Positions 1 to 22,110 of a stretch of DNA of 22,195 nt are shown one piece after another. Every line of letters begins with the position of its first letter. Position 1 is the first letter of the stretch. Below the pieces are notes generated by a model, which ran no database searches, was not told the origin of the DNA, and was given only the letters and a program-made list of their open reading frames with translations. The translations under genes and the position numbers were made by a program. Origin of the DNA: a virus; the IMG/VR virus record IMGVR_UViG_3300020057_000165, positions 1 to 22,195 of that record; one strand, written 5' to 3'.

Positions 1-754
1 GAGAAACATAAGTACAAAATGTTGCGCCGTTAACGGGAACTCCTTCATCGGTAGCAGCTGGTAGAATTCCCGGAAAAATAATTAGTTCATCCATCCACCC
101 TTGAAATGCTTCATTAGAAACCCCGTTGTTTTGAGAAGAGTTTCCTCCGACGGATAAAGTAACGCTGTGTGGATTGGGATAATTATCGGCAACGCTATTT
201 ACAACTGAACCATATATTTCAGAATTAACTTTAAAAGTATAATTATCTCCTGCTTTACTAACCTCTATTACATACCATTCGTTAAGATTTGGGATAAAAG
301 TATTCGTGCTCTTAATCTCAGTTGCAGCGGGAGCCCCTGCCCTAAAAGAAAAAGCAAGGTAACGAGGAGTACCTCCTGCCGGAAAAGCAGACCTTGAAAA
401 TGTCACAAAACTAAAAGCATTCTGAAACCAAGAAGCAAAAATTTCCGTAATCACTTGCGTCGGATCAGAATATTCTTGCCACTTAACTCGTGTTCTTATT
501 GTCCACCCATCAGCCCCTAACCAAAGAGAATTCCCAAAATCGGCGCTTGGGTTTACATTCCATCCGGCAACAGCACCCGCAGCCACTGGATCTGGAAAAT
601 ACGAAGAAGAAGAGCCAACAGCCGGATCATCCGTGCTTAATACAGCCCCACCCTGTCGAGTCACGGCACGGGCATAGCTAGAACTATCAACTGTTGTCGT
701 CTGACCATTTGTTCCTTCAAACATAAGATGTAAAAGATAAGGACTCGCTGGCAT
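1..754 (-). CDS. LamG/concanavalin-A-like protein, partial (C-terminus beyond window)
   Basis: An open frame runs from an ATG at 754-752 to the window's left edge (about 251 codons, no stop), so the gene is cut. Its start overlaps the stop of the nozzle gene (TAATG), which implies translational coupling. The protein opens MPASPYLLHLMFEGTNG and later contains NEWYVIEV and GWMDELIIFPG. These match the usual end of LamG-like (concanavalin-type jelly-roll) domains, where 'W..v.v' strands precede 'G.iDel.i'. The family commonly binds carbohydrate or cell-surface ligands. From its position after the nozzle I infer a tail-associated or receptor-binding protein. No signal peptide or membrane segment is seen. 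The LamG call is by motif only. Confidence 0.7.
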   Translation of the reverse strand, partial: MPASPYLLHLMFEGTNGQTTTVDSSSYARAVTRQGGAVLSTDDPAVGSSSSYFPDPVAAGAVAGWNVNPSADFGNSLWLGADGWTIRTRVKWQEYSDPTQVITEIFASWFQNAFSFVTFSRSAFPAGGTPRYLAFSFRAGAPAATEIKSTNTFIPNLNEWYVIEVSKAGDNYTFKVNSEIYGSVVNSVADNYPNPHSVTLSVGGNSSQNNGVSNEAFQGWMDELIIFPGILPAATDEGVPVNGATFCTYVS

Positions 755-3165
755 TAAGGAACCTCGAATAAAGAAAAGGTACTAGAAGATAGAACTAAAA
801 CATTGTATTCGTTACCATTAAGCTGGTGCGTCCCAACAACGGTGTCAATTCTTACCCTATCTCCGTTGACTAAGCCATGTCCGGCGGCCGTTATTACTAC
901 GGGACTCGACAAAGAGATGCCCGTAATGGTGATAGGATTGTCCAATGTAAGGCTACAATCAACACGAACGGGATCCCATTCGTATTTAAAATTCTCATCG
1001 GTAAAGTATTCTACGAATCTTTTAGTGGCCGATCCGATTCTGCGATTAACAATGACCCAGATTTGGTCAGCGGCACCCTCCTGCTGAATAATAGCAATGC
1101 TCTCAAAACTACCTGTTCCGCTGGCTCCGTCGCACGATACCGTTGCTCCGGCTACTATCCTAAACCACCCATTGACTTCTTGACGAACGTTTCTTGTTAA
1201 AACAGCAATCTGGCCATCACTGCGAACGATCCAGATGCGGTCATTTGGCGATTGCTGGCTGTCAAGATCGTAAGCTCCACCCAATTCGTGGCTTCCTCTA
1301 CCGGGTATATTTGTTGGAATTGGCGCATTTAGAATATGGTCGGCCATAAGTGTTGTGTCAACGGCGTCAACGGAGTCCACGTCAAACTGATAGCCTGACT
1401 CAAGAAATCTCTGTAAGTCGTTTTTTACATAATATGTGTAATTAAGCATGCGTTTTGCCTGAATATCGGCAGACCCGACAAATGTTTCACGTGGAGCATT
1501 GACATTGTCTGGTGTTATTGGCAATCCTTGGTTTCCGGAACCCACAACAAACACGCCACCGGTCGTTCCAAGCTGTAAACCTTTAGGACTAGAGGACAAC
1601 CACCGAATGGAAACAACGGTGTCCGCGTTTAACTCTTCGTCGATGGCGTCATCGTCGGTAGCCCCTTCTTTAAATAGCTCATAGGCGTACGGGACGCTTC
1701 CCCAAACCCCTCCTGGCTGGTATGTCGTATTTGCAAAATACAGCCTTCCTTCGTGGAATGTGCAATGCTTAGGATACCCACGTACTGCGCTCCACGAGCC
1801 TTCCGCCCATAAAAAATATGCGCTTGTTCCACCTATCGTTCCGGCAACCCCGTCCTCGTCTGTTTCCACCGTTCCTGTTACTTGGGTGGAACTCGTAAAG
1901 ACTGTGATTCGGACAATCCCGGTATTAACTTTCCAAAGAGAATTGACATGCCCTGCCTGAAAAATTGCAGTAGATGCCGTTAAGACTGTTGTCCCTGTTG
2001 CACTTGATGGCGTGATCGTGGTTGCCCCAATATTATCATCGAGGAATGGCCCGCCTTTAAAGTTGACCTCAGCCTGCGTGAAGGTAGTGGCATTTGTTCT
2101 CTGCAACTTACGCACGGTGTATTGTCCAGTTGTCAGATACATGGTGTCAGCATTTTGGGTGGTTCTGATATTGTTTAAATACGTGTTAGCAAAAGGGGTG
2201 GCTAATTCTATCGGGGAAGAATCGGAAAATGCAGATGTCTCTGGGGTAAAGTTAGCAATTATTGATTCTCCGACCACAATTTGGAGCTCGTCAATCCAGC
2301 CATTCATTACATAGGAACCGTTGGCGGTCATAGCGCCAATGTCGAGAGCAACTGCTCTGGCGGTCAATGGATCGGCATCAACAGCGGTTGCCCCCTGCTG
2401 AACACCGTCTAAGAATAATCTAAAATTGCTTCCGTTGCGACTAACAGCCACGTGATACCAAGTATTAATTGCTATGGTTACGCTAACCGACATATCAACC
2501 ACGTTCCCGGAATCATAGTCTCTAAAGCGAAGTGACGTACCCTCAAATCCGAAATAAAGATAGCTACCACCGCCAGATACTCTTCCCAGGATCATATTGT
2601 TTCCAGATGTGTTGTTAAGCCTTACCCAAGCCCTAATTATAAAATCACTTGAGCCGAAATCCCAATCCGGAGAATCTGCGTAAGAAATATAATCGCCGGT
2701 GCCGTCGAACATAGCAGAAGCGCCACCAAACTTTGACTGCGCGGTGTCTATCTGAACATTGCCGGTTGCAACCCCGTTTCCGTGAGCTGACCCGGAAGAA
2801 TCCGGGAAAGTTGTTGCGGCATCGACACCGTTAAAATGAGTCTGTAGTTTTATGTTTGGATTAACCGCCGCTAGTTGTCCTCCGTCGGTGTAAAATCTAA
2901 AATAAAGATGACCAGCCTCAATAATATAATTTTGCTCTGTTGAATACTGAAACTTAAGAAGACGTGATCGGATCGAGCTTGTCTTGGTATCGGCAACGTA
3001 TCTCGTGCCGGGACGAAAGAGCACGCCACCTAGCTGATAGATAATAAAATTCTCCAAGGTCTCCGATGAGTTCGAGTATTTAGAAATATCAAAACGCCCA
3101 GCTGCCCGCGGACTTATCTCGCCATTGGTGAAATTATTAATGATCTGGTCTGGTTTCATTCCCAT
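754..3165 (-). CDS. Tail nozzle / tail tubular protein B-like, with inserted LamG domain
   Basis: 803 aa. The N-terminus (NNFTNGEISPRAAGRFDISKY, then TLENFIIYQLGGVLFRPGTR, residues about 11-55) carries the signature of short-tail nozzle proteins of the T7 gp12/'phage stabilisation' type: 'f..GEisP...gR.D..kY...c..leNf......G...rRpGtr'. Residues about 107-312 are a LamG-like insertion (FDGTGDYISYA, NTWYHVAVSRNGSNFRLFLDG, GWIDELQI). The C-terminal 50 residues (VVITAAGHGLVNGDRVRI...HQLNGNEYNV) resemble the beta-barrel repeats annotated in phages as 'E1 FCCH-like', which also occur in the adaptor gene. It lies downstream of a secreted-protein gene with 4 bp between. No good ribosome-binding site precedes ATG 3165; the third codon is also ATG, so the start could shift by two codons. 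Confidence 0.82.
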   Translation of the reverse strand: MGMKPDQIINNFTNGEISPRAAGRFDISKYSNSSETLENFIIYQLGGVLFRPGTRYVADTKTSSIRSRLLKFQYSTEQNYIIEAGHLYFRFYTDGGQLAAVNPNIKLQTHFNGVDAATTFPDSSGSAHGNGVATGNVQIDTAQSKFGGASAMFDGTGDYISYADSPDWDFGSSDFIIRAWVRLNNTSGNNMILGRVSGGGSYLYFGFEGTSLRFRDYDSGNVVDMSVSVTIAINTWYHVAVSRNGSNFRLFLDGVQQGATAVDADPLTARAVALDIGAMTANGSYVMNGWIDELQIVVGESIIANFTPETSAFSDSSPIELATPFANTYLNNIRTTQNADTMYLTTGQYTVRKLQRTNATTFTQAEVNFKGGPFLDDNIGATTITPSSATGTTVLTASTAIFQAGHVNSLWKVNTGIVRITVFTSSTQVTGTVETDEDGVAGTIGGTSAYFLWAEGSWSAVRGYPKHCTFHEGRLYFANTTYQPGGVWGSVPYAYELFKEGATDDDAIDEELNADTVVSIRWLSSSPKGLQLGTTGGVFVVGSGNQGLPITPDNVNAPRETFVGSADIQAKRMLNYTYYVKNDLQRFLESGYQFDVDSVDAVDTTLMADHILNAPIPTNIPGRGSHELGGAYDLDSQQSPNDRIWIVRSDGQIAVLTRNVRQEVNGWFRIVAGATVSCDGASGTGSFESIAIIQQEGAADQIWVIVNRRIGSATKRFVEYFTDENFKYEWDPVRVDCSLTLDNPITITGISLSSPVVITAAGHGLVNGDRVRIDTVVGTHQLNGNEYNVLVLSSSTFSLFEVP

Positions 3166-3169
3166 AGTT

Positions 3170-3697
3170 TTAAGTTATTATTGTAACGTTGTTGGATGAA
3201 ATAATAATATATCCGTTTGTGGCATCTAAAAACACCATGGTCACTGAGTCGCCGACAGCATCAAACACGACAGAACTAAATCCGAGCTTTGTTGTGGGCG
3301 TCAAAGTAAATGTCCCACCCGACCAAACCTCTGTGATTGTTATAGTGATGACCTTGCCAAGGATTGCATCCGTAAGGGTTCCGTTTGCTAAAGAAGGATC
3401 TCCGGAAATAGACTTTCGCACAAAAGCGTAGCTTCCTGAAACAGCCGTCTGTCCGGAAGTCATTGATGTCGCCCCGCCGTTAGCTAGGCCGGCGCTTAAA
3501 AGAAAGTAACTTCCATAATCTGTTAGTTGCCCTGTGGGAACGCGAACATCGACACATTTTTGATTAGAAACTGATCTCGCTTGATCTTCTAAGGTAATGC
3601 AGAAGTCGCGCGTTCCGGTCGTAGAATTATATTTAGACCCTGCAAAGCAATCGCTGTATTGAAAAAATAGGATTAAGAAAATAATAATTTTCAACAT
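3170..3697 (-). CDS. Secreted hypothetical protein, paralogue of the 6034-6531 gene
   Basis: 175 aa. The N-terminus MLKIIIFLILFFQYSDCFAG is a typical Sec signal peptide (Lys, hydrophobic core, cleavage after CFA). The mature part is beta-rich and low in charge. It aligns by eye with the product of 6034-6531: 'GLANGGATSM....FVRKSIS' against 'GYGNGGGTSM....VVRKAIS', and 'GKVITITIT...GTFTLTPTT...FDAVGDSVTM' against 'GQLITIRIT...GTFLLRPTT...FDGVDDSVTL'. The two are therefore paralogues. It sits between the adaptor and nozzle genes. The start codon has no visible ribosome-binding site and lies 3 bp after the adaptor stop, so coupling is likely. Function is unknown. A signal peptide is unexpected for a virion protein; an exported protein acting on the infected cell surface is one inference. 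Confidence 0.75.
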   Translation of the reverse strand: MLKIIIFLILFFQYSDCFAGSKYNSTTGTRDFCITLEDQARSVSNQKCVDVRVPTGQLTDYGSYFLLSAGLANGGATSMTSGQTAVSGSYAFVRKSISGDPSLANGTLTDAILGKVITITITEVWSGGTFTLTPTTKLGFSSVVFDAVGDSVTMVFLDATNGYIIISSNNVTIIT

Positions 3698-3700
3698 ATT

Positions 3701-4867
3701 TTAAAGTGGATGCCATGTCTGAGGGTTGGTCACATATTTTTCGCCGGTCATCATTTCCGTTTCCCATTGATCTTGGATCGGCTGGTCCGGTGTTCCCTGC
3801 GTCGAATCAACAGAAACAGCAGAAGGTAAAACCACGTCTAGATACATCCGCATCAACTGCTCTGACTTTGTCGTCGAGTTGGTGATAGCAAATGCGATCT
3901 CTGCCGCGAGCCGTGTAGATAGCGCTTGAGTAAACTTAGGAAAATATTTTGTCGTGTCGGTGACAAGTGCGGTGTATCTTAATTTGAGATCTTTCGAGTC
4001 AGCAATTATTTTATCGTCTTCGATTTGGAGCAACCCACCATAACTATTGCTTTGAGCGATTGGCTTAATAAAGTCAGCCGGCTTTTGATAAACAACCACA
4101 GCCCCCGAGTCTGTCGTTGCCAATTTTCCTGCCTTTAGAATTTGGCCTCCGGAAGTGTAAACCCCATAAGCCAAACCGTTTACATTAACCGCGGCGGTTG
4201 TATCTAAAGAAAACGTGTTTGCTGTGGCGTCGTCAACGATATAGAAATTCCCGTTGAGTTGGGTCATTCCAAGTACGCCTTGAATATAAACCCAATCGTC
4301 GTCAATAAATCCGTGAGCCACCGAAGTAATAACGACCGGATTAGCCGCGGTCGCCACGGTGATTAGAATAAGCGTTGTGTCATTCGCCAAGTAAATCTGT
4401 CCGCCTGCTGTATAAGCCGTGTAAGCATCCCCATCAATATCGACACCCGTGTCTTGATTAACAATTGCAAAGGTTGTGCGCGTGGCGCTTGTAACCACAT
4501 AGAAATTATCGTTAAGCTGTGTCATCCCAGATACCCCAACGATTTTTATTCTGTCTCCGTTGGCCAAGCCATGATCTGCGGATGTTATAACAACTGGCTC
4601 ATCGGCGGTCGCCGCGGTGATTGATGCAGGTGCATAAATTCTTTGATTAATTGTGCGCGTTACGTCGTCCGGAACAACAGCAGTTAAAGCCAGTCTCTTT
4701 TGCGCAAACGTCCACGGATGTTCAGATAAGACTTCTTTTAAAATTTCGTCGTATACCGCATTGATTGCGACGGCTTCTTGGGATCCCTCTTGAGTAAAAG
4801 AGGTTATCGGGCGGGCGCCCATCTTTTGCAGAGCCATATTAGCGATGACTAATTTATTGGCAGCCAT
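3701..4867 (-). CDS. Tail tubular protein A-like adaptor (gatekeeper) with two FCCH-like repeats
   Basis: 388 aa. Residues 1-60 (KLVIANMALQKMGA, YDEILKEVLSEHPWTFAQKR) match the start of T7 gp11-type adaptor proteins, which form the ring joining portal to nozzle. Residues about 290-360 (LKLRYTALVTD, FTQALSTRLAAEIAFAIT) match that family's C-terminal helical part. Between them, residues about 82-250 hold two tandem copies of a roughly 80-residue beta repeat: 'PVVITSxxHG......I.GV.GMTQLN.NFY.V..A...TF....' then 'Y.AYTxGGQI'. These resemble phage 'FCCH-like' repeats and probably form decorations on the tail tube. AAAGGAG lies at a good distance before ATG 4867. The start overlaps the end of the upstream membrane-protein gene by 14 bp. 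Confidence 0.85.
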   Translation of the reverse strand: MAANKLVIANMALQKMGARPITSFTQEGSQEAVAINAVYDEILKEVLSEHPWTFAQKRLALTAVVPDDVTRTINQRIYAPASITAATADEPVVITSADHGLANGDRIKIVGVSGMTQLNDNFYVVTSATRTTFAIVNQDTGVDIDGDAYTAYTAGGQIYLANDTTLILITVATAANPVVITSVAHGFIDDDWVYIQGVLGMTQLNGNFYIVDDATANTFSLDTTAAVNVNGLAYGVYTSGGQILKAGKLATTDSGAVVVYQKPADFIKPIAQSNSYGGLLQIEDDKIIADSKDLKLRYTALVTDTTKYFPKFTQALSTRLAAEIAFAITNSTTKSEQLMRMYLDVVLPSAVSVDSTQGTPDQPIQDQWETEMMTGEKYVTNPQTWHPL

Positions 4868-5936
4868 GGTTTCTCTCCTTTATCATAAAAATACAATAAG
4901 CTACAAATGCGACTAGGATTAGAACCGTCTGGATTTGCCTATCTGGAAAATGAACCAGAGAATTAGCGATGATCATAACCAAACCCGCAACACAATTAAT
5001 CAATCCCAGCCCTATCAGCTTCGACAAGAGTATTGCAATACCCGTTACCGCCAAGACAATGCTAAGAAAACCGGCCTCAAAGTAAAGCTGGATAAAGAAA
5101 TTGTGTGCTGTCTTCCACGGGAACGATGTTGGCATATTGCTTTTTATAGGAAAAATATATTTAAAGGAGCCGATACCCCATCCTGTTAAAGGCCGTTGAT
5201 TTGCCAGTTCAATTGCTTTGGCCCACACTCCGGCCCGCCCAAGATTGCTTAGGTTGCGTTCAAATTTATGTTGAGACACCCCAAAAGCAACAAAAACAAT
5301 TCCAGCAACGGCAAGAATAATTAAAGCTTTTTTCTTGGACTCATTAAAGGCAATGGATAGCCACCCGGCAAAGCCACAAGCTACGCCCCAAACCGAAAGG
5401 CAGATAACGCTAGCTAGCAAGGAAAATATTAAGTTAAGGCGGGAGCATGAAATAAGGAATGCGGATAAAACGACAAACATTGAGGCTGTCTGCATGGACT
5501 GGCCAATCAATCCTACGTAAACAGCATTTGTCATCCCGAAGTTATTAATAGGATCTCTCCCGAAGCATTGCATAGTCAGCATAAGAACATTTAAGAAGAG
5601 GATCGCCAAAAGGCATTTAAAGACTGGACTCCAATCCTTGATTTTAGTACACAGGATAAAGAAATAGCATATCGCAATCAAAGAAAAATAAGAAACAAAG
5701 GCCAGAAAAGGTGAAAATGCCAGAAAGCAGTTAATAAATCCGCCGACGGCAACGATCTTAACCACTAAATTTGTGTTTATGAATAGTGTTAGAAAACCAA
5801 AAAAACCAGAAACTAAAACCATCCACGGCCACAAATCATTAAGCACTGGTACTGAAAAATTAACGACTGGGATCGTCGCAAAAAAAGCAATTATAAATCC
5901 AACAAGGTACGGAATTATTTTTTCCATGATGAGCAT
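4854..5936 (-). CDS. O-antigen ligase/polymerase-like (Wzy/WaaL family) membrane protein
   Basis: 360 aa with about ten hydrophobic segments. Around residues 224-290 comes a polar stretch with the family hallmarks: GRAGVWAKAIE (Arg234), RPLTGWGIGSF (about 249-258) and AHNFFIQLYFEAG (His278), then further membrane segments. This Arg...GxG...HN..lq...E.G arrangement is characteristic of the Wzy/WaaL polytopic glycosyltransferases, which polymerise or ligate lipid-linked O-antigen on the periplasmic side of the inner membrane. It is embedded in the phage late operon between a secreted protein and the tail adaptor. By analogy with the Wzy of phage D3 it may alter host O-antigen to block superinfection; this is inference. 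It is slightly shorter than many host homologues (about 400). No clear ribosome-binding site precedes ATG 5936, and ATG 5927 is an alternative. Confidence 0.75.
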   Translation of the reverse strand: MLIMEKIIPYLVGFIIAFFATIPVVNFSVPVLNDLWPWMVLVSGFFGFLTLFINTNLVVKIVAVGGFINCFLAFSPFLAFVSYFSLIAICYFFILCTKIKDWSPVFKCLLAILFLNVLMLTMQCFGRDPINNFGMTNAVYVGLIGQSMQTASMFVVLSAFLISCSRLNLIFSLLASVICLSVWGVACGFAGWLSIAFNESKKKALIILAVAGIVFVAFGVSQHKFERNLSNLGRAGVWAKAIELANQRPLTGWGIGSFKYIFPIKSNMPTSFPWKTAHNFFIQLYFEAGFLSIVLAVTGIAILLSKLIGLGLINCVAGLVMIIANSLVHFPDRQIQTVLILVAFVAYCIFMIKERNHGCQ

Positions 5937-6033: not shown

Positions 6034-6531
6034 TTATTGGATCGTTACCGATCTACCGTCAACAACATACCACGCAGAATCCCACAACAATGTCACGCTG
6101 TCATCAACACCGTCAAACGCGATTGTCGTGTAATCCGAGCTTGGCGTTGTAGGACGTAGCAAAAACGTCCCAGAACCTGCACGGGCAGTAATTCTAATTG
6201 TTATTAATTGGCCTTGGTAAGAACCAGCCACCAAGGATCCAGCTAACCCAACCGTTGTGCTAATGGCTTTACGAACAACCGAATTCCCGACCGGAACCAC
6301 TGTATCGGTGTCGATCATAGACGTACCGCCACCGTTACCATACCCAGCCAGCATCAGGTTGAATGTTAATGTGCTACCATCGCTTGAGATCGCATTCCCA
6401 GCGTTACGGAAATTAAGATCTGTCGCGGTTCCTGCACCAGCGCCGTCCTTCTTTACACCGACCGCGGCAAAAGAGGGAGAGGCGAGAGTCAGCATCAAAA
6501 CCGCCAACAATAATACTTTGATTTTTCTCAT
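6034..6531 (-). CDS. Secreted hypothetical protein, paralogue of the 3170-3697 gene
   Basis: 165 aa from ATG 6531, chosen because GGAG sits 6 nt upstream (6538-6541) and because this start yields a clean Sec signal peptide: MRKIKVLLLAVLMLTLASPS then FAA before the likely cut. An upstream in-frame start would bury that signal. The mature protein is small, Gly/Thr/Ser-rich and predicted beta. It shares several blocks with the 3170-3697 product (GNGGGTSM, VVRKAIS, ITIRIT, GTFLLRPTT, DDSVTL). It follows the candidate decoration gene after a hairpin-bearing gap and precedes a tandem repeat and the O-antigen-ligase-like gene. Function is unknown. Export to the periplasm or surface of the infected host is the simplest reading of the signal peptide. 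Confidence 0.78.
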   Translation of the reverse strand: MRKIKVLLLAVLMLTLASPSFAAVGVKKDGAGAGTATDLNFRNAGNAISSDGSTLTFNLMLAGYGNGGGTSMIDTDTVVPVGNSVVRKAISTTVGLAGSLVAGSYQGQLITIRITARAGSGTFLLRPTTPSSDYTTIAFDGVDDSVTLLWDSAWYVVDGRSVTIQ

Positions 6532-6555
6532 TGTCTTCTCCATTTTTATTTTAAG

Positions 6556-6580
6556 AGGTCGTGACATTTTGTCACGATCT
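6556..6580 (-). other. Intergenic hairpin between decoration and secreted-protein genes
   Basis: TCGTGACA (6559-6566) and TGTCACGA (6570-6577) form a perfect 8-bp inverted repeat around a 3-nt loop, extendable by two or three pairs with one mismatch. On the minus strand it lies just upstream of the ribosome-binding site of the 6034-6531 gene. There is no U-run directly after it, so it may be an RNA-stabilising or attenuating structure, or an operator, rather than a strong terminator. Confidence 0.55.
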
Positions 6581-6587
6581 CCATGCC

Positions 6588-7019
6588 TTAATCGTGTGTG
6601 TAAAGAATAACCAGAGTAATAACGCCCGCAGTAGCGGTCGCCCCACCCGTGGTTAAAACGATTTGCAAGTCGTTCGTTCCGGTAGCAACATAACCGCGTC
6701 CTGACAACAGGGTCAATGCGTTTGCCGTTTGAAGACCCGTGCTCGCAGATGCGTAGCGGGTAGCAGACCCGTCATCACCAATCGAAGCGGTCAACGACAC
6801 TTGTGCCGTAGAAGACGACATCAAAATCGCTAGAATTGTAGATCCGTCCGGTAACGCATTGTTACCGAAAATGATGGTACTGCCGGACAATTCTACCCCG
6901 GTTAGCGTGATCTTGTCCACGTTGCATTTAACGCGACCATCGATCCATCCTTGTGGCTGGACGTTTGTCAGCCCACCAGCAGCGGCTGCTGCTGCAACTA
7001 GCCCTGAATATTCAACCAT
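6588..7019 (-). CDS. Candidate capsid decoration / minor head protein
   Basis: 143 aa, starting at ATG 7019 with AGGAGG at good spacing. Composition is rich in Gly, Ala, Thr, Ser and Val with alternating hydrophobic residues, as in an all-beta structural protein. No signal peptide, transmembrane segment or catalytic motif is seen. It begins MVEYSGLVAAAAAAGGLTN and ends VITLVILYTHD. I do not recognise the family. Its position directly after the major capsid gene, with an equally strong ribosome-binding site, is where decoration or head-stabilising proteins are usually encoded, so the call rests on context and composition only. Confidence 0.5.
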   Translation of the reverse strand: MVEYSGLVAAAAAAGGLTNVQPQGWIDGRVKCNVDKITLTGVELSGSTIIFGNNALPDGSTILAILMSSSTAQVSLTASIGDDGSATRYASASTGLQTANALTLLSGRGYVATGTNDLQIVLTTGGATATAGVITLVILYTHD

Positions 7020-7081: not shown

Positions 7082-7960
7082 TTAAGCTTCGGCGCAAGCC
7101 ACTTCCACAATGCGGGACTCTTCCAAACGAGTTGCACCCATAACTAAGCGCATGTAAACCTGCCACGCATAGTTTTTGTCTGCGCGTTCCGTAATGCGAC
7201 CTTCGGCTTCTTTCATAACAGCCAACTGAATGGCTTTTTTCTGCCAGAAATAGCACAAGCGGAAACCAGACGCATTGGTAAGTAAGCGTTCACTTCTCTT
7301 AAAACGGAAACCAACCCATGTGTTAACTTCACCCTGAACCAACGCCTTAACGGTGTTGAAGTCAGAGCTGGTCACTTCGGTCGTGTTTAAGAGGTCTTCT
7401 AACTGCTTGGCACCAATAACAGCGCAACGATCTTCATTATCGACTTCGGCCAAGTTTAACAACGTGGCAGCACGCAAGACTTTCGCCTTGGTCAAACCAG
7501 TGTTAGACCCACCACCGCCGTATGTAACAGCGACCTTTTGGTTGGAATCGAATACCGTTGCGGTTCCACCGGCAGCGCCAGCGTATGCAGTTCCGCCCAT
7601 AGCAGAAATAATAATGTCATCTTTCTGGCGATTGGCAGCGGCGCGCTTGGCTTGCATGTAGACAGACTTAGGATCAACTAACATCTGGAGAGCATCAGAA
7701 GGGTCTTCCAACGTGTTGGAAACGAAATAGCGCGGGGTGACCATGCGCAGACGGTGATCTGGAACCATAATTGGCGTGTCGGCATAACGAGTCATGATTT
7801 CAATAAAATCATCACTGCCGTATTGATTATAAAACTTGCGATCCCCACGAAAATCATAGTCAACCATAACGCAATCGCTGGCTCGAGAGTCAGACTGTTG
7901 CGCTAACATTGAAACTGTATCTTTGTATTGTTGGACAAATGCGATACTTGGAGCGGCCAT
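7082..7960 (-). CDS. Major capsid protein
   Basis: 292 aa from ATG 7960, chosen because AGGAGG (7967-7972) lies 6 nt upstream; a start 24 bp earlier would place that site inside the gene. The sequence begins MAAPSIAFVQQYKDTVSMLA, has an N-terminal region rich in charged and aromatic residues (DYDFRGDRKFYNQYG), a Gly/Ala-rich loop (TYGGGGSNTG) and ends ESRIVEVACAEA. FVQQYKDTVSMLAQQ, followed by 'F.R......VMKEAEGRITERADKNY..QVYM.MGATRLE', resembles the 'phage capsid family' seen beside T7-like portals. Gene order (scaffold, small gene, capsid) and strong translation signals support the call. About 130 non-coding bases lie upstream; I see no convincing promoter there. Confidence 0.85.
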   Translation of the reverse strand: MAAPSIAFVQQYKDTVSMLAQQSDSRASDCVMVDYDFRGDRKFYNQYGSDDFIEIMTRYADTPIMVPDHRLRMVTPRYFVSNTLEDPSDALQMLVDPKSVYMQAKRAAANRQKDDIIISAMGGTAYAGAAGGTATVFDSNQKVAVTYGGGGSNTGLTKAKVLRAATLLNLAEVDNEDRCAVIGAKQLEDLLNTTEVTSSDFNTVKALVQGEVNTWVGFRFKRSERLLTNASGFRLCYFWQKKAIQLAVMKEAEGRITERADKNYAWQVYMRLVMGATRLEESRIVEVACAEA

Positions 7961-8091
7961 AATAAACCTCCTGTTTAAAACCATTAAAAAACTGATTTTG
8001 GTAACTTAAACAGTTGTCCATTGCTGGGCCGTTTGTTGCGGAAATGTGGGGCCGTTTTAGAGGTTGTCCCTAAGAGCTTTGAATCTGCGCT

Positions 8092-10762: not shown

Positions 10763-12397
10763 TTATTTCCCAGCTGATGCAGCCATGGCTGAATTCTTCT
10801 CAGCTTCGGATCCGCTCTTGGCTATATCCGCCACAGCCGACCCTGCCTGCATGGTTTGAAGGAGTTGATTCTGCTCTTCTCGATGTTTGCGCATCTGATC
10901 GACATCTGCGTCCCCTCGCAAGATTTCCGGGGTAACCCCACGAATGCGGTGCAGGACTGACAGAGTTTTGTCTTCGTCGATCTTATCGTACACTCCCGGG
11001 ATGATTTGTCCAAGGCTTGCCACGTCGCCCAAGAAATTCTGTATCTCTCTTATTTCGGATTGCTGCTGTGCTCTTGCCAATTGAGACAGATAAACAAGCT
11101 CATAAGTTTCGTCAAGCAGTTCTTCGGGGACTGCGGGAAACCCTGACGACGTATCTCGACGGCCCATGCTGATCAATCGGATTAACATCTTGCCAAGCGT
11201 CCTGTTGTCGCGATTAACAACCGGCCCTAATAAAGCCATGTCCTGAGATATTCTGTGTTGCACCTCAATAACCGGCATCTGTTTTGTGATGTCGTCGAAT
11301 GATCTAAACAAATTCACAAACATCCCTCGCTCAATCTTGCCGGCAATATATTCGATCAAATCTTTGCCTATATCAATGCGTCCATTGCTGACCGGTAAAA
11401 GCTGAATAGCATCGTTAGGGGTTTTGGCGTCACGGTAATTCATCGCGCCGGGATTAAGATTAAGTGGCAGTACAAGACCGCGGCTCGGCATCATATAAGC
11501 CGGATCGGCTTGCTTCATCGCTCCACGGATCACGGTGCGAGACATTGCGTTAATCAATTTGACCCACGGAAAAATGTCCATAGCGGCCGATGATCCGTTT
11601 GGATCACTCGAGTCTTTATAGAAGACGGAGGAGAAATACGGCATCTCAATAAACCCGCTCTCTGCAATCTTCTGTTTGTCTTTTTTGTTGATCCAGAGCG
11701 ACTTATAGGGCATGTTTGCGGCGTCTTCTTTGTCCGTCTCTCGGTCAAAGCGCTCGCCCACATAGTGGACGAACTCAAATTCTTGGTGCGGTTTATTCTC
11801 GAGCGATTCCAGCACAGACTTGCCAGCATTCCTGCCCCAAAGCTTGAAAGCCTGCCGGGCCGTAAGAGGGAAATTGCGATACAGTGCGATCAATTCGCCG
11901 TTAGCATCAACGACACGATTGACTTGACCGACCGGGATGTCGTTATATTTAACAAAGTCTTTGTCATCATCCAACATTGAGAAGGTGCCAGTCCCGAAAA
12001 TAAGCTTGCCATGAAACCACTCCGGGGCCACTTCGTAAAAGTTTGAATCCTTTAGCGTAGCAAAAGCCCAATCCTCAACGTCATGAGCAAATGTTTTAGC
12101 AATCTCGCTGTCTTTAATTTTTTTATTTTGGTACTGGTATCCGAACCATCTAGAGGAGGGATTTGTTAGGTAAGTATTAAAGCCCGCGGAAGTCTCGCGT
12201 GCCGAGATGATTGCTGTTGAGTCGTAGAGAAAATTAAACTTAAGCTGTTCCCCCGTTATCTTCATGGTGTTGATCCATGCCTTGCGAGGGGTAAAAAAGT
12301 CAGCCAAGTCTTGGCAATAGCTTCGATAATTGGAGTTCTGGTTGGTCAAGAATTCATTGTCGATCAAAATCTCTTTGACTTCATTCTCTGATGTCAT
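10763..12397 (-). CDS. Portal (head-to-tail connecting protein, T7 gp8-like)
   Basis: 544 aa, the usual length for this family (about 500-550). Family-typical segments include 'YRSYCQDLADFFTPRKAWI' near the N-terminus, 'YDSTAIISARETSAGFNTYL' with 'TNPSSRWF' (about 60-90), 'FGTGTFSML', a mid-protein 'GSSAAMDIFPWVKLINAMSR', and late 'PVIEVQHRISQDMALLGPVV' and 'ELVYLSQLARAQQ'. These correspond to the head-tail connector portals of T7-like podoviruses, which form the dodecameric DNA channel at one capsid vertex and dock the terminase and tail adaptor. The C-terminus is polar and Ala/Ser-rich. Two adjacent stop codons end the gene. It is followed by small genes and then the scaffold, the canonical order. 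Confidence 0.92.
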   Translation of the reverse strand: MTSENEVKEILIDNEFLTNQNSNYRSYCQDLADFFTPRKAWINTMKITGEQLKFNFLYDSTAIISARETSAGFNTYLTNPSSRWFGYQYQNKKIKDSEIAKTFAHDVEDWAFATLKDSNFYEVAPEWFHGKLIFGTGTFSMLDDDKDFVKYNDIPVGQVNRVVDANGELIALYRNFPLTARQAFKLWGRNAGKSVLESLENKPHQEFEFVHYVGERFDRETDKEDAANMPYKSLWINKKDKQKIAESGFIEMPYFSSVFYKDSSDPNGSSAAMDIFPWVKLINAMSRTVIRGAMKQADPAYMMPSRGLVLPLNLNPGAMNYRDAKTPNDAIQLLPVSNGRIDIGKDLIEYIAGKIERGMFVNLFRSFDDITKQMPVIEVQHRISQDMALLGPVVNRDNRTLGKMLIRLISMGRRDTSSGFPAVPEELLDETYELVYLSQLARAQQQSEIREIQNFLGDVASLGQIIPGVYDKIDEDKTLSVLHRIRGVTPEILRGDADVDQMRKHREEQNQLLQTMQAGSAVADIAKSGSEAEKNSAMAASAGK

Positions 12398-12403
12398 GCG
12401 TGC

Positions 12404-12880
12404 TCACAGGGTAGGTCGTATTTTCTTAGATACGTGCGTGTCGAAATTATCATAACCTAATATTTTCATAAACCGTAAACGTTTTTGTGTTTCTTTCCCA
12501 ACAGCAAAGCCGTAAACAATCCTATTAATCTTTGTTGATGCAAAAAAATGCTCAACTGCAAGGATGATCCTCGGGGTTAATCTGCGATATTCTTTTTTTA
12601 CAAAAAGAAACATCACACACAACATCACCTCGTCATTATAAGTGCAACCAAAGACTGTACCGCCGATACCGCAAATCGCCACGTTATCTTTCTCAATAAT
12701 GACAATTCCTTCGCTTATTAATAATTCCTGCAAGCTTTTCTTTGTCTTTTCGCAATCAATCAATAAATCGCCATCATACTCGTCGACAAAATTAAAGAGC
12801 GTCGAAAGATCGTCCGTCCTGCCAAGGCGAACCGTAAGCTTATTGTCCGACCAATGTTTTTGTTCCAACCGTAGCCCCAA
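12404..12880 (-). CDS. GNAT-family acetyltransferase-like protein
   Basis: 158 aa. The layout is that of GNAT proteins: an N-terminal 'VRLGRTDDLSTLFNFV' helix, a beta segment 'NVAICGIGGTVFG', the central 'MLCVMFLFVKKEYRRLTPRI' (where the acetyl-CoA-binding V-x-x-x-[RQ]-x-x-[GR]-[IL] loop is expected) and a C-terminal 'RLRFMKILGYDNFD' resembling the usual '..fyeklGF'. A canonical Q/R-x-x-G-x-G/A is not obvious, so activity is uncertain. Such genes often sit between terminase and portal in podophages; the substrate is unknown. The start is unsure: TTG 12880 overlaps the upstream gene by 41 bp and no in-frame ATG is nearby. Confidence 0.62.
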   Translation of the reverse strand: MGLRLEQKHWSDNKLTVRLGRTDDLSTLFNFVDEYDGDLLIDCEKTKKSLQELLISEGIVIIEKDNVAICGIGGTVFGCTYNDEVMLCVMFLFVKKEYRRLTPRIILAVEHFFASTKINRIVYGFAVGKETQKRLRFMKILGYDNFDTHVSKKIRPTL

Positions 12881-19087: not shown

Positions 19088-20452
19088 ATGAAGAACAAAA
19101 TTTATGCCACTTTACTATGTTTTGTACTATCCGCATCACCGCTTTTTGCAAATACCGTTACTCTGCCAACCACCGGAACAACTACTTTTATAGGTCAAGC
19201 ACCCAATGATCGAGCAGGGAATATCGTAAACGTTGGCGACGTTGACGGCGATAGTGTCCCGGACGTACTTATCGGTGCTTATAACGCAGCGGGTGGGGGA
19301 AAAGCATACCTTATTTTTGGTAAAGCTTCCAAGTTTCCCCCCGTAGTTAATCTTTCGTCGGTCGGAACGACCACGAGAGGCGTTGTTTTTACCACCGGCA
19401 ATTCCACCGGGCGCGCATTGGCGGCGGCTGGTGACATTAACAATGACGGATTAGCCGACTTTGTTATTGGTACGGGCAACTGGAGAGCTGGTGCGGGTTT
19501 TTACATAGTATCCGGCAGCAGAAATTTTCCGACATCCGTGGACTTAAGGGTGGCTGTGCCTGGAGTAAATAGTGTTTTTTATTCAGGGCCTCTGCCTAAT
19601 AAAATCGTTGTTGCCGACATTAACCGCGATGGATTAAGTGATATTGTTTGCGATGCGCAATTTGATTCGAGCGTGAGGATTTTTTATGGAGATAAATTGC
19701 TAACCAGTGGATCGGTTTCTGCAGTTAATGATTCTTACTATGACGGCGTTAAAGCGACAAAACTGGTCACAACTAACAGTTCTGGATTTTCCAATCCCAA
19801 TATAGCCGATGTGAACAGAGACGGGATTAACGATGTTCTCTTTTCTGTCAACGGTAAAGGGTATGTTTTATTTGGGAAAGCAGGGTCTTTGGGATCTATC
19901 GTATTGGCTACTGACTCTTATTTTGACGGTGTCAAAGGTTTTAAAATCTCCGGAGCAAACAATGATTCTTACTATCTGAATATTGTTGGCGACATAAATA
20001 AGGACGGTTATCTTGACATCGGCGTATCTAATAGCCGAACCGCGATCATTCTCGGTCGCGCTATATGGCCGGCTGCGGTTGATCTTTCCCAGCTAAACGG
20101 GACTAACGGGTTTTTAATTTCTTCGGAGAGTGCCATATACAGCGTTATGGCCGCCGGCGATTATAATAGCGATGGAATAAGCGACATTGCATTAACAAAT
20201 ACGTGGAACAATGGTGCCATTGACATTGTTTACGGCAGATCAATATGGCCGGCAAGTTATACTGTTGGTGCTCCATTGCCAAGCGAAGGTGTGCGGTTCC
20301 TTGGAGAGTCAACGGCTAAAGCACTGTCCTTTGAAGGTGTGAGTTCCAATTTGTACGGTGGGGAATCATGCCCACGGGTTCAATCGTATTTATTTTCGGC
20401 AACGGGGAACAACTTTACCGTTGGACGTGCTTATATTCAAGACATTCAATAG
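19088..20452 (+). CDS. Secreted FG-GAP/VCBS beta-propeller protein
   Basis: 454 aa with AGGAG before ATG 19088. A clear Sec signal peptide (MKNKIYATLLCFVLSASPLF then AN) is followed by six calcium-loop repeats: GDVDGDSVPD (about 50-59), GDINNDGLAD (115-124), ADINRDGLSD (176-185), ADVNRDGIND (240-249), GDINKDGYLD (301-310) and GDYNSDGISD (357-366). Several are followed by 'vlfG' strands (AYLIFGKA, GYVLFGKAG, DIVYGRS). This is the integrin-alpha/FG-GAP propeller pattern, usually extracellular and involved in adhesion or ligand binding. No C-terminal sorting, autotransporter or membrane anchor is visible. Host-envelope-type genes like this are unusual in phage arms. It is probably a moron-like accessory gene whose product acts outside the infected or lysogenic cell. 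Confidence 0.85.
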   Translation: MKNKIYATLLCFVLSASPLFANTVTLPTTGTTTFIGQAPNDRAGNIVNVGDVDGDSVPDVLIGAYNAAGGGKAYLIFGKASKFPPVVNLSSVGTTTRGVVFTTGNSTGRALAAAGDINNDGLADFVIGTGNWRAGAGFYIVSGSRNFPTSVDLRVAVPGVNSVFYSGPLPNKIVVADINRDGLSDIVCDAQFDSSVRIFYGDKLLTSGSVSAVNDSYYDGVKATKLVTTNSSGFSNPNIADVNRDGINDVLFSVNGKGYVLFGKAGSLGSIVLATDSYFDGVKGFKISGANNDSYYLNIVGDINKDGYLDIGVSNSRTAIILGRAIWPAAVDLSQLNGTNGFLISSESAIYSVMAAGDYNSDGISDIALTNTWNNGAIDIVYGRSIWPASYTVGAPLPSEGVRFLGESTAKALSFEGVSSNLYGGESCPRVQSYLFSATGNNFTVGRAYIQDIQ

Positions 20453-20606: not shown

Positions 20607-21227
20607 ATGAAAAAACTCATGATTATGTTGATCGCCACAGTCGCCTTTGTCGGCATTGCGCGCGCAGAAGAGTTTCCGATCCAAGTAACAATACCAGCGG
20701 CGACATCTGTCAAGTTCATTGTTTCCGATGTTAAGGGTTCACCGCCTGTGTTTACAGCACACGTCGGAAACTTCCTAAACTTCGACCAGAACAATGGTGG
20801 GATGAAATTTGTCGCTGGCCCTAACGTCTGGTTAGGTCAAGGGTTTTTCGCCATTGATCTATCTCCGGCAAACGGAAATGACCCCGCTCCCGGGAATTAC
20901 CAGTCGGTCACGTTTTCTTATGGCGGTCAAATTGTTCCGGCCGGCCAAGCTCCGGCGGAAGGATTAAATAAGCGCGCCACACTAACAGCTGTGCGCGTTA
21001 ATTCTAATCAAACCGAGTCGGTCTTGCGCAACGGTGCGCTTGGTGCGGCAACTGCAGCTTTGGGTAATGCAGACATCACAGGCGGATTTTTGCGCGTGTA
21101 TGTCGGTACAGCTACAGGAGAAGTCGTAAATGGTATCCCCACAGTTCCGGGTACTGTTCCTTTTACCAACGCTGACAAAGCTGGCGTATATCAAGGCACG
21201 TTAACGATCAGTGCGACCTTGACGTAA
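20607..21227 (+). CDS. Secreted beta-sandwich protein (DUF4402/fimbrial-like)
   Basis: 206 aa with TAGGGAG before ATG 20607. It has a Sec signal peptide (MKKLMIMLIATVAFVGIARA then EE). The mature part is beta-rich with few charges and one calcium-like or polar loop (NFDQNNGG). It closes with 'AGVYQGTLTISATLT', the ending typical of secreted immunoglobulin-like domains such as DUF4402 and spore-coat-U-like fimbrial proteins. That resemblance is by C-terminal motif only. It has its own promoter-like site and is bracketed by hairpins on both sides, the arrangement of a phage moron expressed independently of the lytic programme. Function is not known; a cell-surface or pilus-like subunit is a reasonable guess. 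Confidence 0.72.
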   Translation: MKKLMIMLIATVAFVGIARAEEFPIQVTIPAATSVKFIVSDVKGSPPVFTAHVGNFLNFDQNNGGMKFVAGPNVWLGQGFFAIDLSPANGNDPAPGNYQSVTFSYGGQIVPAGQAPAEGLNKRATLTAVRVNSNQTESVLRNGALGAATAALGNADITGGFLRVYVGTATGEVVNGIPTVPGTVPFTNADKAGVYQGTLTISATLT

Positions 21228-21321: not shown

Positions 21322-21513
21322 ATGATAGCTGTCATTGGGAACATAAATGTACTTCCGAGTTTGAGGTTTGGGTTGGGGTCGTTGTCGATGTCGGGGTCGA
21401 GGTCGTGGTCGGGGTCGAGGTCGAGGTCGAGGTCGAGGTCGAGGTCGAGGTTGTGGTTGGGGTCGATGTCGTTGTCGAGGTCAATATTGGGTTCAAGGTC
21501 AATTTCAGCTTAA
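21322..21513 (+). CDS. Cassette copy 1: MIAVIGN-leader Ser-Arg repeat protein
   Basis: 63 aa from ATG 21322, with GGAAGGAG 5 nt upstream. An in-frame GTG at 21286 with AAAGGA before it is an alternative start, but the ATG coincides with the beginning of the conserved leader. The leader MIAVIGNINVLPSL is followed by alternating Ser-X (SLSMSGSRSWSG, then a run of Ser-Arg and a more varied end, RSISA). Partners of Ser are R, G, W, M, L and I. The reading frame is supported because the other copies keep the leader peptide with synonymous changes. Such Arg/Ser polymers are basic and disordered, and could bind nucleic acid or membranes; function is unknown. I do not recognise the family. Confidence 0.62.
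   Translation: MIAVIGNINVLPSLRFGLGSLSMSGSRSWSGSRSRSRSRSRSRLWLGSMSLSRSILGSRSISA
21379..21510 (+). repeat. Hexanucleotide tandem tract, consensus GTCGNK
   Basis: Six perfect GTCGAG units (21414-21449) are flanked by degenerate units (GTCGTT, GTCGAT, GTCGGG, GTCGTG, GTTGTG). Most variation falls in the fifth and sixth bases. The unit length of six keeps the reading frame when copies are gained or lost. Confidence 0.85.
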
Positions 21514-21936: not shown

Positions 21937-22110
21937 ATGATAGCCGTCATTGGGAATGTAAAGGTACTTCCGAGGTTGATGCGTAGGTCGAGGTCTGAGT
22001 CAATGTCAGGGTCGAGGTCGAGGTCGAGTACGAGGTCGTGGTCGTTGTCGTGGGCGAGGTCGGTGTCGGGGTCGAGGTCGAGGTCGATGTCAAGGACAAT
22101 GTCACTTTAA
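21937..22110 (+). CDS. Cassette copy 2: MIAVIGN-leader Ser-X repeat protein
   Basis: 57 aa. The leader MIAVIGNVKVLPRL aligns with copy 1 (two conservative replacements and several synonymous changes). It is followed by Ser-X repeats (RSRSESMSGSRSRS, WSLSWARSVSGSRSRSMS) and the shared tail and stop. The start is 1 bp after the stop of the 126-aa protein. The preceding bases (GAAGTAAA) resemble the tail of copy 1's ribosome-binding region (GGAGTAAG), so homology extends just upstream of the ATG even though the TTAACCG box is absent. Partners of Ser include R, M, G, W, L, V and one E. No longer perfect repeat run remains, suggesting an older or less recently expanded copy. Confidence 0.6.
   Translation: MIAVIGNVKVLPRLMRRSRSESMSGSRSRSSTRSWSLSWARSVSGSRSRSMSRTMSL
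21983..22107 (+). repeat. Second hexanucleotide (GTCGNK-type) tract
   Basis: Degenerate GTCGAG-related units fill copy 2 (GTCAGG, GTCGAG, GTCGTG, GTCGTT, GTCGGG, GTCGAT). One disruption (GTCGAGTACGAGG) locally breaks the unit order but keeps the reading frame. CGTGGGCGAGGTC at 22049-22061 is repeated exactly upstream of copy 1 at 21285-21297. Confidence 0.75.

Follow-up and report, generated by a model that had tools for sequence, protein, structure and literature searches.

Known Wzy_C systems

Wzy_C enzymes move lipid-linked glycans in the periplasm, and include WaaL, Wzy and the protein O-oligosaccharyltransferases (O-OTases), which share the domain and cannot be distinguished by it (PMC3643930). 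Among the protein-specific O-OTases TfpO, TfpM and PglS, the gene often lies beside that of its acceptor (PMC12645811; also PMC3643930), and PglL_A and Wzy_C_2 are missing from TfpO and TfpM (PMC12645811). Phages are also known to carry Wzy proteins, with those of Acinetobacter K127/K58 and the Wzy-beta of P. aeruginosa D3 serving lysogenic conversion (PMC9241936, PMC13228068, PMC4815439); the Acinetobacter genes, wzy1Ph and wzy2Ph, are prophage conversion genes situated near a depolymerase gene, towards the prophage end. The enzyme family, and phage Wzy proteins as prophage conversion genes, are already known, while the fixed pairing of such an enzyme with an exported protein, the occurrence of the pair across unrelated phages, and its location in late operons are new. 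In the literature searched, no description was found of a conserved, transferable exported-protein and Wzy_C pair in late phage operons.

The phage and its late genes

The window, i.e. the whole stretch of DNA analysed here, is a 22,195-base IMG/VR virus record in its entirety, has no end repeats, and is probably a piece of a podophage genome. Its portal, capsid and tail genes group it with relatives of Pelagibacter phage HTVC010P, with a capsid identity to named phages of no more than 45%. The structural genes lie on the minus strand and include the portal (12397..10763), the major capsid protein (MCP; 7984..7082, PF19821, HTVC010P-related), a tail tubular protein A-like gene (4867..3701) and a second tail protein (3165..754). 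Among them, flanked upstream by a conserved 143-aa gene that follows the capsid gene (7019..6588, minus strand) and downstream by tail tubular A, sits a pair of genes encoding a Sec-exported protein and a Wzy_C enzyme.

Both tail tubular A (3701-4867) and the next tail protein (754-3165) carry inserted E1_FCCH-like and Laminin_G-like domains, and the tail tubular A of relatives is shorter than that of the window.

The enzyme

The enzyme gene (5936..4854, minus strand), which has an ATG start and a stop codon at 4856-4854, encodes a 360-aa polytopic membrane glycan transferase of the Wzy_C superfamily. Its end overlaps the start of tail tubular A (4867) by exactly 14 nt (4854..4867, minus strand), a probable case of translational coupling. 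PF04932 (Wzy_C) is the sole Pfam family to match, at 42.6 bits (curated cut-off 31.7; E 6.8e-11). The same domain is matched by 33 of 34 phage homologues (E <= 0.01), none of which matches PglL_A (PF15864) or Wzy_C_2 at that threshold. A profile built from 21 phage homologues found a single match among solved proteins, WaaL of Cupriavidus metallidurans (PDB 7tpg, E 2.7e-6), and the AlphaFold2 model, built on the homologue alignment (pLDDT 89.9, pTM 0.90), likewise retrieved 7tpg in Foldseek (2.5e-5, probability 1.00, TM 0.51), with no other PDB protein scoring below 1e-3. FtsW and RodA ranked next with weak scores. No match below 1e-3 was obtained in BFVD, where an Arthrobacter phage Faja protein appeared at 3e-2, and PHROGs gave no match for the window enzyme.

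With WaaL (7tpg/7tpj), the enzyme shares the Wzy_C domain, the R...W...PxxGxG...AHN...x9-G block, and a matching multi-helix predicted fold, although identity is 14% and global superposition is poor (TM 0.51, rmsd 10.5). Unlike WaaL, it is phage-encoded, lies outside an LPS locus, and is paired with an exported protein. Across the 34 diverged phage homologues, which are 13-41% identical to the window protein, R234, G252, H278 and G289 are invariant, and W238, G254, A277 and N279 almost so. The enzyme's H278-N279-x9-G289 aligns with the corresponding block of 7tpg, and the periplasmic-loop Arg and His of WaaL (E. coli R288 and H338 types) are kept as R234 and H278, which with N279 make up the catalytic-block residues. 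No invariant equivalent was found of the first Arg (E. coli WaaL R215 / PglL R224), in a part where the alignment is loose. The enzyme is under purifying selection, with a dN/dS of 0.08-0.16 where divergence permits measurement; the comparison of the window with its near-identical relative L002 is unusable, having too few changes. Together, these findings fit an active enzyme maintained by purifying selection.

These results bear out much of an earlier reading made from the sequence alone, which had described a Wzy/WaaL-type gene with conserved Arg and His blocks, situated amid the structural genes of a late operon and overlapping a tail gene by 14 bp. Its assignment agrees with the above-cut-off Wzy_C match and with WaaL as the closest solved relative, in both profile search and structure prediction; the blocks correspond to R234 and H278; MCP, portal and tail proteins flank the gene; and the overlap is confirmed by the coordinates. 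Three other identities were considered and rejected: an unrelated transporter is ruled out by Wzy_C being the sole Pfam match and WaaL ranking first in the fold search; membership of the SEDS proteins (FtsW/RodA) is disfavoured by fold scores weaker than those for WaaL and the lack of a SEDS Pfam match; and PglL proper by the missing PglL_A and Wzy_C_2 domains.

The exported partner

The gene directly upstream of the enzyme, which did not feature in the sequence-only reading, encodes a small beta-rich protein of 177 aa (6567..6034, minus strand) with a Sec signal peptide ending LASPSFAA. A second Sec-exported paralogue of 175 aa (3697..3170, minus strand) follows tail tubular A, and is also found in L006 and L079. 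The partner model (pLDDT 76, pTM 0.53) weakly resembles phage tailspike domains (CBA120 TSP4, 2.9e-5, TM <0.5) and the Pa223 capsid spike. Partners fall into C-terminal types: those of type B end in a conserved W/F-T/S-D-G-G-A/S-like peptide, and among those of type A, to which the window's partner belongs, no C-terminal Ser/Thr is shared and the ends vary, that of the window being SVTIQ. In several relatives (L028, L031, L032, L057-59, L086, L087) a partner protein is present but the enzyme is not, so the partner has a role for which the enzyme is dispensable.

Giant exported proteins of 1153-1222 aa, which share the partner's N-terminal region, occupy the same head/tail slot in three enzyme-less relatives (L057:7461-10922, L058:7367-10957, L059:4414-8082).

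Distribution of the pair

Scans with a capsid alignment and with the enzyme turned up relatives in many metagenomic phages. The window's gene arrangement recurs in L002, a second, near-identical contig (99%), and in about 20 related podophage contigs a diverged enzyme fills the same slot, always directly before the tail gene, so that the gene is kept at this locus in related phages well beyond chance. Neither outcome named as refuting the sequence-only reading, a profile match to an unrelated transporter family or loss of the gene from all close relatives, was thus observed. Among 45 non-redundant loci that are complete between capsid and tail tubular A, 19 carry the enzyme together with an sp-family exported protein, one carries it with a different exported protein, and eight have the sp-family protein but no enzyme. 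The remaining 17 were called automatically as having neither gene, and in two of these (L037 and L051) an sp-like exported protein can be made out on reading the sequence. HTVC010P and MW202510 are without the enzyme gene, and tblastn found neither enzyme nor partner in named phages.

The pairing extends well beyond this slot. A rule-based test scored the gene directly upstream of the enzyme as Sec-like in 32 of 34 non-redundant loci, drawn from phages with several unrelated structural backbones; for the other ORFs of these loci the tally was 34 of 237 (Fisher 7e-21). L084 and L149, which the rule missed, carry signal peptides that are evident on inspection, giving 34/34. For cellular homologues, the upstream neighbour is Sec-like in three of 20. 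Scans with enzymes of the second clade recovered the same pair in additional phage backbones: before the portal (L098/L131, L132), after unrelated capsid-type genes (L134, L139-143, L145, L146, L152), and beside a DNA polymerase, away from structural genes (L150/L151).

The capsid tree does not keep the enzyme clades apart: they alternate on it, with at least 10 changes required by their labels. The C-terminal type of the partner nevertheless matches the enzyme clade in 20 of 20 leave-one-out tests, as well as in L098, a backbone outside the training set. This interleaving, combined with the matching of types, implies that the two genes were exchanged together. Judged by such comparisons, enzyme and partner form a two-gene module that moves among phages. 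Joint transfer is explicable by adjacency alone, but the constancy of the exported protein in unrelated settings is not, and the two proteins probably work as a pair. A recent transfer of the enzyme from the host is disfavoured, as none of the Omnitrophota relatives sampled groups within the phage clades, in a split that is weakly supported (77/80) and with one phylum sampled.

Hairpins between partner and enzyme

Two tandem RNA hairpins (6025-5986 and 5985-5940, minus strand) separate the partner and enzyme genes, and contain the most stable 60-nt stretch in the window, ranking first of 4427 (-60.2 kcal/mol over 121 nt for the region, z -4.9). In eight of ten window-type loci, no other 60-nt stretch of the locus is as stable as the hairpin in this gap. 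Rfam gave no match for it, and no such hairpin lies between partner and enzyme in the second-clade loci. It is not an enzyme-specific element, as relatives without the enzyme often carry a hairpin of similar kind ahead of the tail genes.

In phage T7, the T-phi terminator sits in the corresponding place, between gene 10 and gene 11. Like T-phi, the window hairpin is strong and separates head and tail blocks; unlike T-phi, it additionally separates the exported protein from the enzyme, and a clear U-tract is missing in several examples. By analogy, the window-type hairpin is probably a T-phi-like attenuator before the tail block. Such an attenuator would place the partner among the plentiful products of the head block and the enzyme among the scarcer ones of the tail block, an arrangement that would fit a substrate and its enzyme.

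Strong gene-boundary hairpins ahead of the tail block were also seen in the capsid-to-tail region of L012, L031, L032, L040, L050, L058, L059, L067 and L071, so that a probable T-phi counterpart occurs throughout the lineage.

Host and lifestyle

Several observations point to Omnitrophota as the likely host phylum. An enzyme-less relative (L087), on a contig of an Omnitrophota MAG (G001:C27), adjoins radical-SAM-type and other bacterial genes and is apparently a prophage in Omnitrophota, and an enzyme-bearing phage contig was binned in a different Omnitrophota genome. Relatives of the window's 206-aa secreted protein (20607-21227, plus strand) turned up in 22 of 193 Omnitrophota genomes and in 0 of 200 from the phylum of the Methylococcaceae MAG. 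Cellular relatives of the enzyme occur in 169 of the 193 sampled Omnitrophota genomes.

A search of nine related virus records of up to 48.6 kb, which are possibly fragments, yielded no tyrosine integrase, making lysogenic conversion less likely. A Wzy gene of lysogenic conversion would also be expected in a temperate phage and outside the late operon, whereas the enzyme gene overlaps a tail gene. The sequence-only reading had set this gene apart from phage Wzy proteins of lysogenic-conversion loci, a contrast that the published cases uphold (PMC9241936, PMC13228068, PMC4815439). The Acinetobacter and D3 proteins resemble the window enzyme in being phage-borne and of Wzy type, and differ in that the latter lies among late head and tail genes and has an invariant exported partner.

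What the pair may do

The window enzyme is a member of the Wzy_C family and is paired with an exported protein; its catalytic activity, donor, protein acceptor and expression levels, and the benefit to the phage, we infer. Given the constant exported-protein gene upstream, a protein acceptor is at least as likely as host LPS. Our preferred reading, to which we assign a probability of roughly 0.42, is that the enzyme is a phage-encoded periplasmic O-OTase that modifies its exported partner. The gene lies directly beside that of an exported protein, as with TfpO/PilO, TfpM and PglS, and it shares with TfpO and TfpM the lack of PglL_A and Wzy_C_2; a dedicated O-OTase is favoured because this adjacency and these missing domains match the TfpO/TfpM pattern. 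Unlike TfpO and TfpM, whose acceptor is a pilin with a C-terminal Ser/Thr, the enzyme is phage-borne and its partner is no pilin, and a candidate acceptor only. Four points weigh against the O-OTase reading: PglL_A, the one protein O-OTase sequence signature, is absent from the enzyme; the partner is also found alone in several relatives; physical adjacency alone would co-transfer the two genes; and type A partners have no obvious common acceptor residue in their sequences.

If the enzyme is such an O-OTase, the head-gene block would yield much Sec-exported beta-rich protein late in infection, and the tail block, past the hairpin attenuator, little enzyme. The enzyme would pick up undecaprenyl-pyrophosphate-linked host glycan in the periplasm and move it onto the partner. 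Either the glycosylated partner or the depletion of host glycan precursors could then change the surface of the infected cell, with less re-adsorption or superinfection as a result. More broadly, and tentatively, the pair may constitute a portable periplasmic protein O-glycosylation system, in which a late exported tailspike-like protein and a dedicated oligosaccharyltransferase using host lipid-linked glycan are common to unrelated phages of Omnitrophota, and possibly of other hosts.

The protein O-OTase reading is favoured over O-antigen remodelling for superinfection exclusion, which is somewhat less probable. Here, a late O-antigen or capsule ligase or polymerase would alter the host-surface glycan, blocking superinfection or freeing progeny, with the exported protein an independent receptor blocker or helper. 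The enzyme's place in the WaaL superfamily, with WaaL its closest solved relative, speaks for such remodelling, as do the known phage Wzy proteins that alter host polysaccharide (PMC9241936, PMC13228068, PMC4815439) and the cellular relatives in Omnitrophota, which indicate that such substrate pathways exist in the likely host phylum. Those known cases are, however, prophage conversion genes, whereas this is a late gene with no tyrosine integrase in related records, and remodelling leaves the constant exported partner and the matching of types unexplained. The interpretation of the sequence-only reading is thus partly supported: its superfamily assignment, the late structural position and the contrast with conversion genes hold, and host LPS is a candidate acceptor.

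It is unlikely that the partner is a periplasmic regulator, which inhibits or redirects a host polymerase or ligase, or sets chain length, while the phage enzyme substitutes, in the manner of D3 Wzy-beta and its inhibitor. The invariant pairing and type matching would be expected of such an arrangement, and an inhibitor accompanying phage Wzy has been reported in P. aeruginosa, with another proposed in Acinetobacter (PMC13228068), but the partner, which is soluble, exported, beta-rich and weakly tailspike-like, is neither a small membrane peptide nor a two-helix membrane protein of the Wzz kind. That the pair is hitchhiking cargo, tolerated in a head/tail slot that is a recombination hotspot and having no role in the lytic cycle, is very improbable; slot contents do vary (empty, an exported protein alone, a giant one of 1150-1220 aa, or the pair), but the enzyme is under purifying selection (dN/dS 0.08-0.16), its catalytic block is invariant, and the same pair occupies other genomic slots in unrelated phages. 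Least probable of all is a non-enzymatic membrane protein keeping the Wzy fold, for example in superinfection exclusion or lysis, since the low identity among homologues that would suit it (13-41% to the window protein) is countered by conservation of precisely those periplasmic-loop Arg and His residues that are important in WaaL and PglL (PMC3643930).

Were the enzyme to glycosylate its partner, phages would own a periplasmic glycosylation system, with a possible new strategy of superinfection exclusion or surface cloaking, and a source of small substrate-specific oligosaccharyltransferases. The pair also offers a handle on phages of Omnitrophota, a phylum that is almost uncultured.

Other features of the window

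A GNAT-like acetyltransferase gene (12880..12404, minus strand), with a weak PHROG match, lies between portal and terminase, and a secreted FG-GAP-repeat protein of 454 aa is encoded at 19088-20452 (plus strand). Hexanucleotide tandem repeats, GTCGAG and AGGTCG, occur at 21384-21482 and 21985-22095, and are open on both strands, giving SR/GR/EV-rich ORFs.
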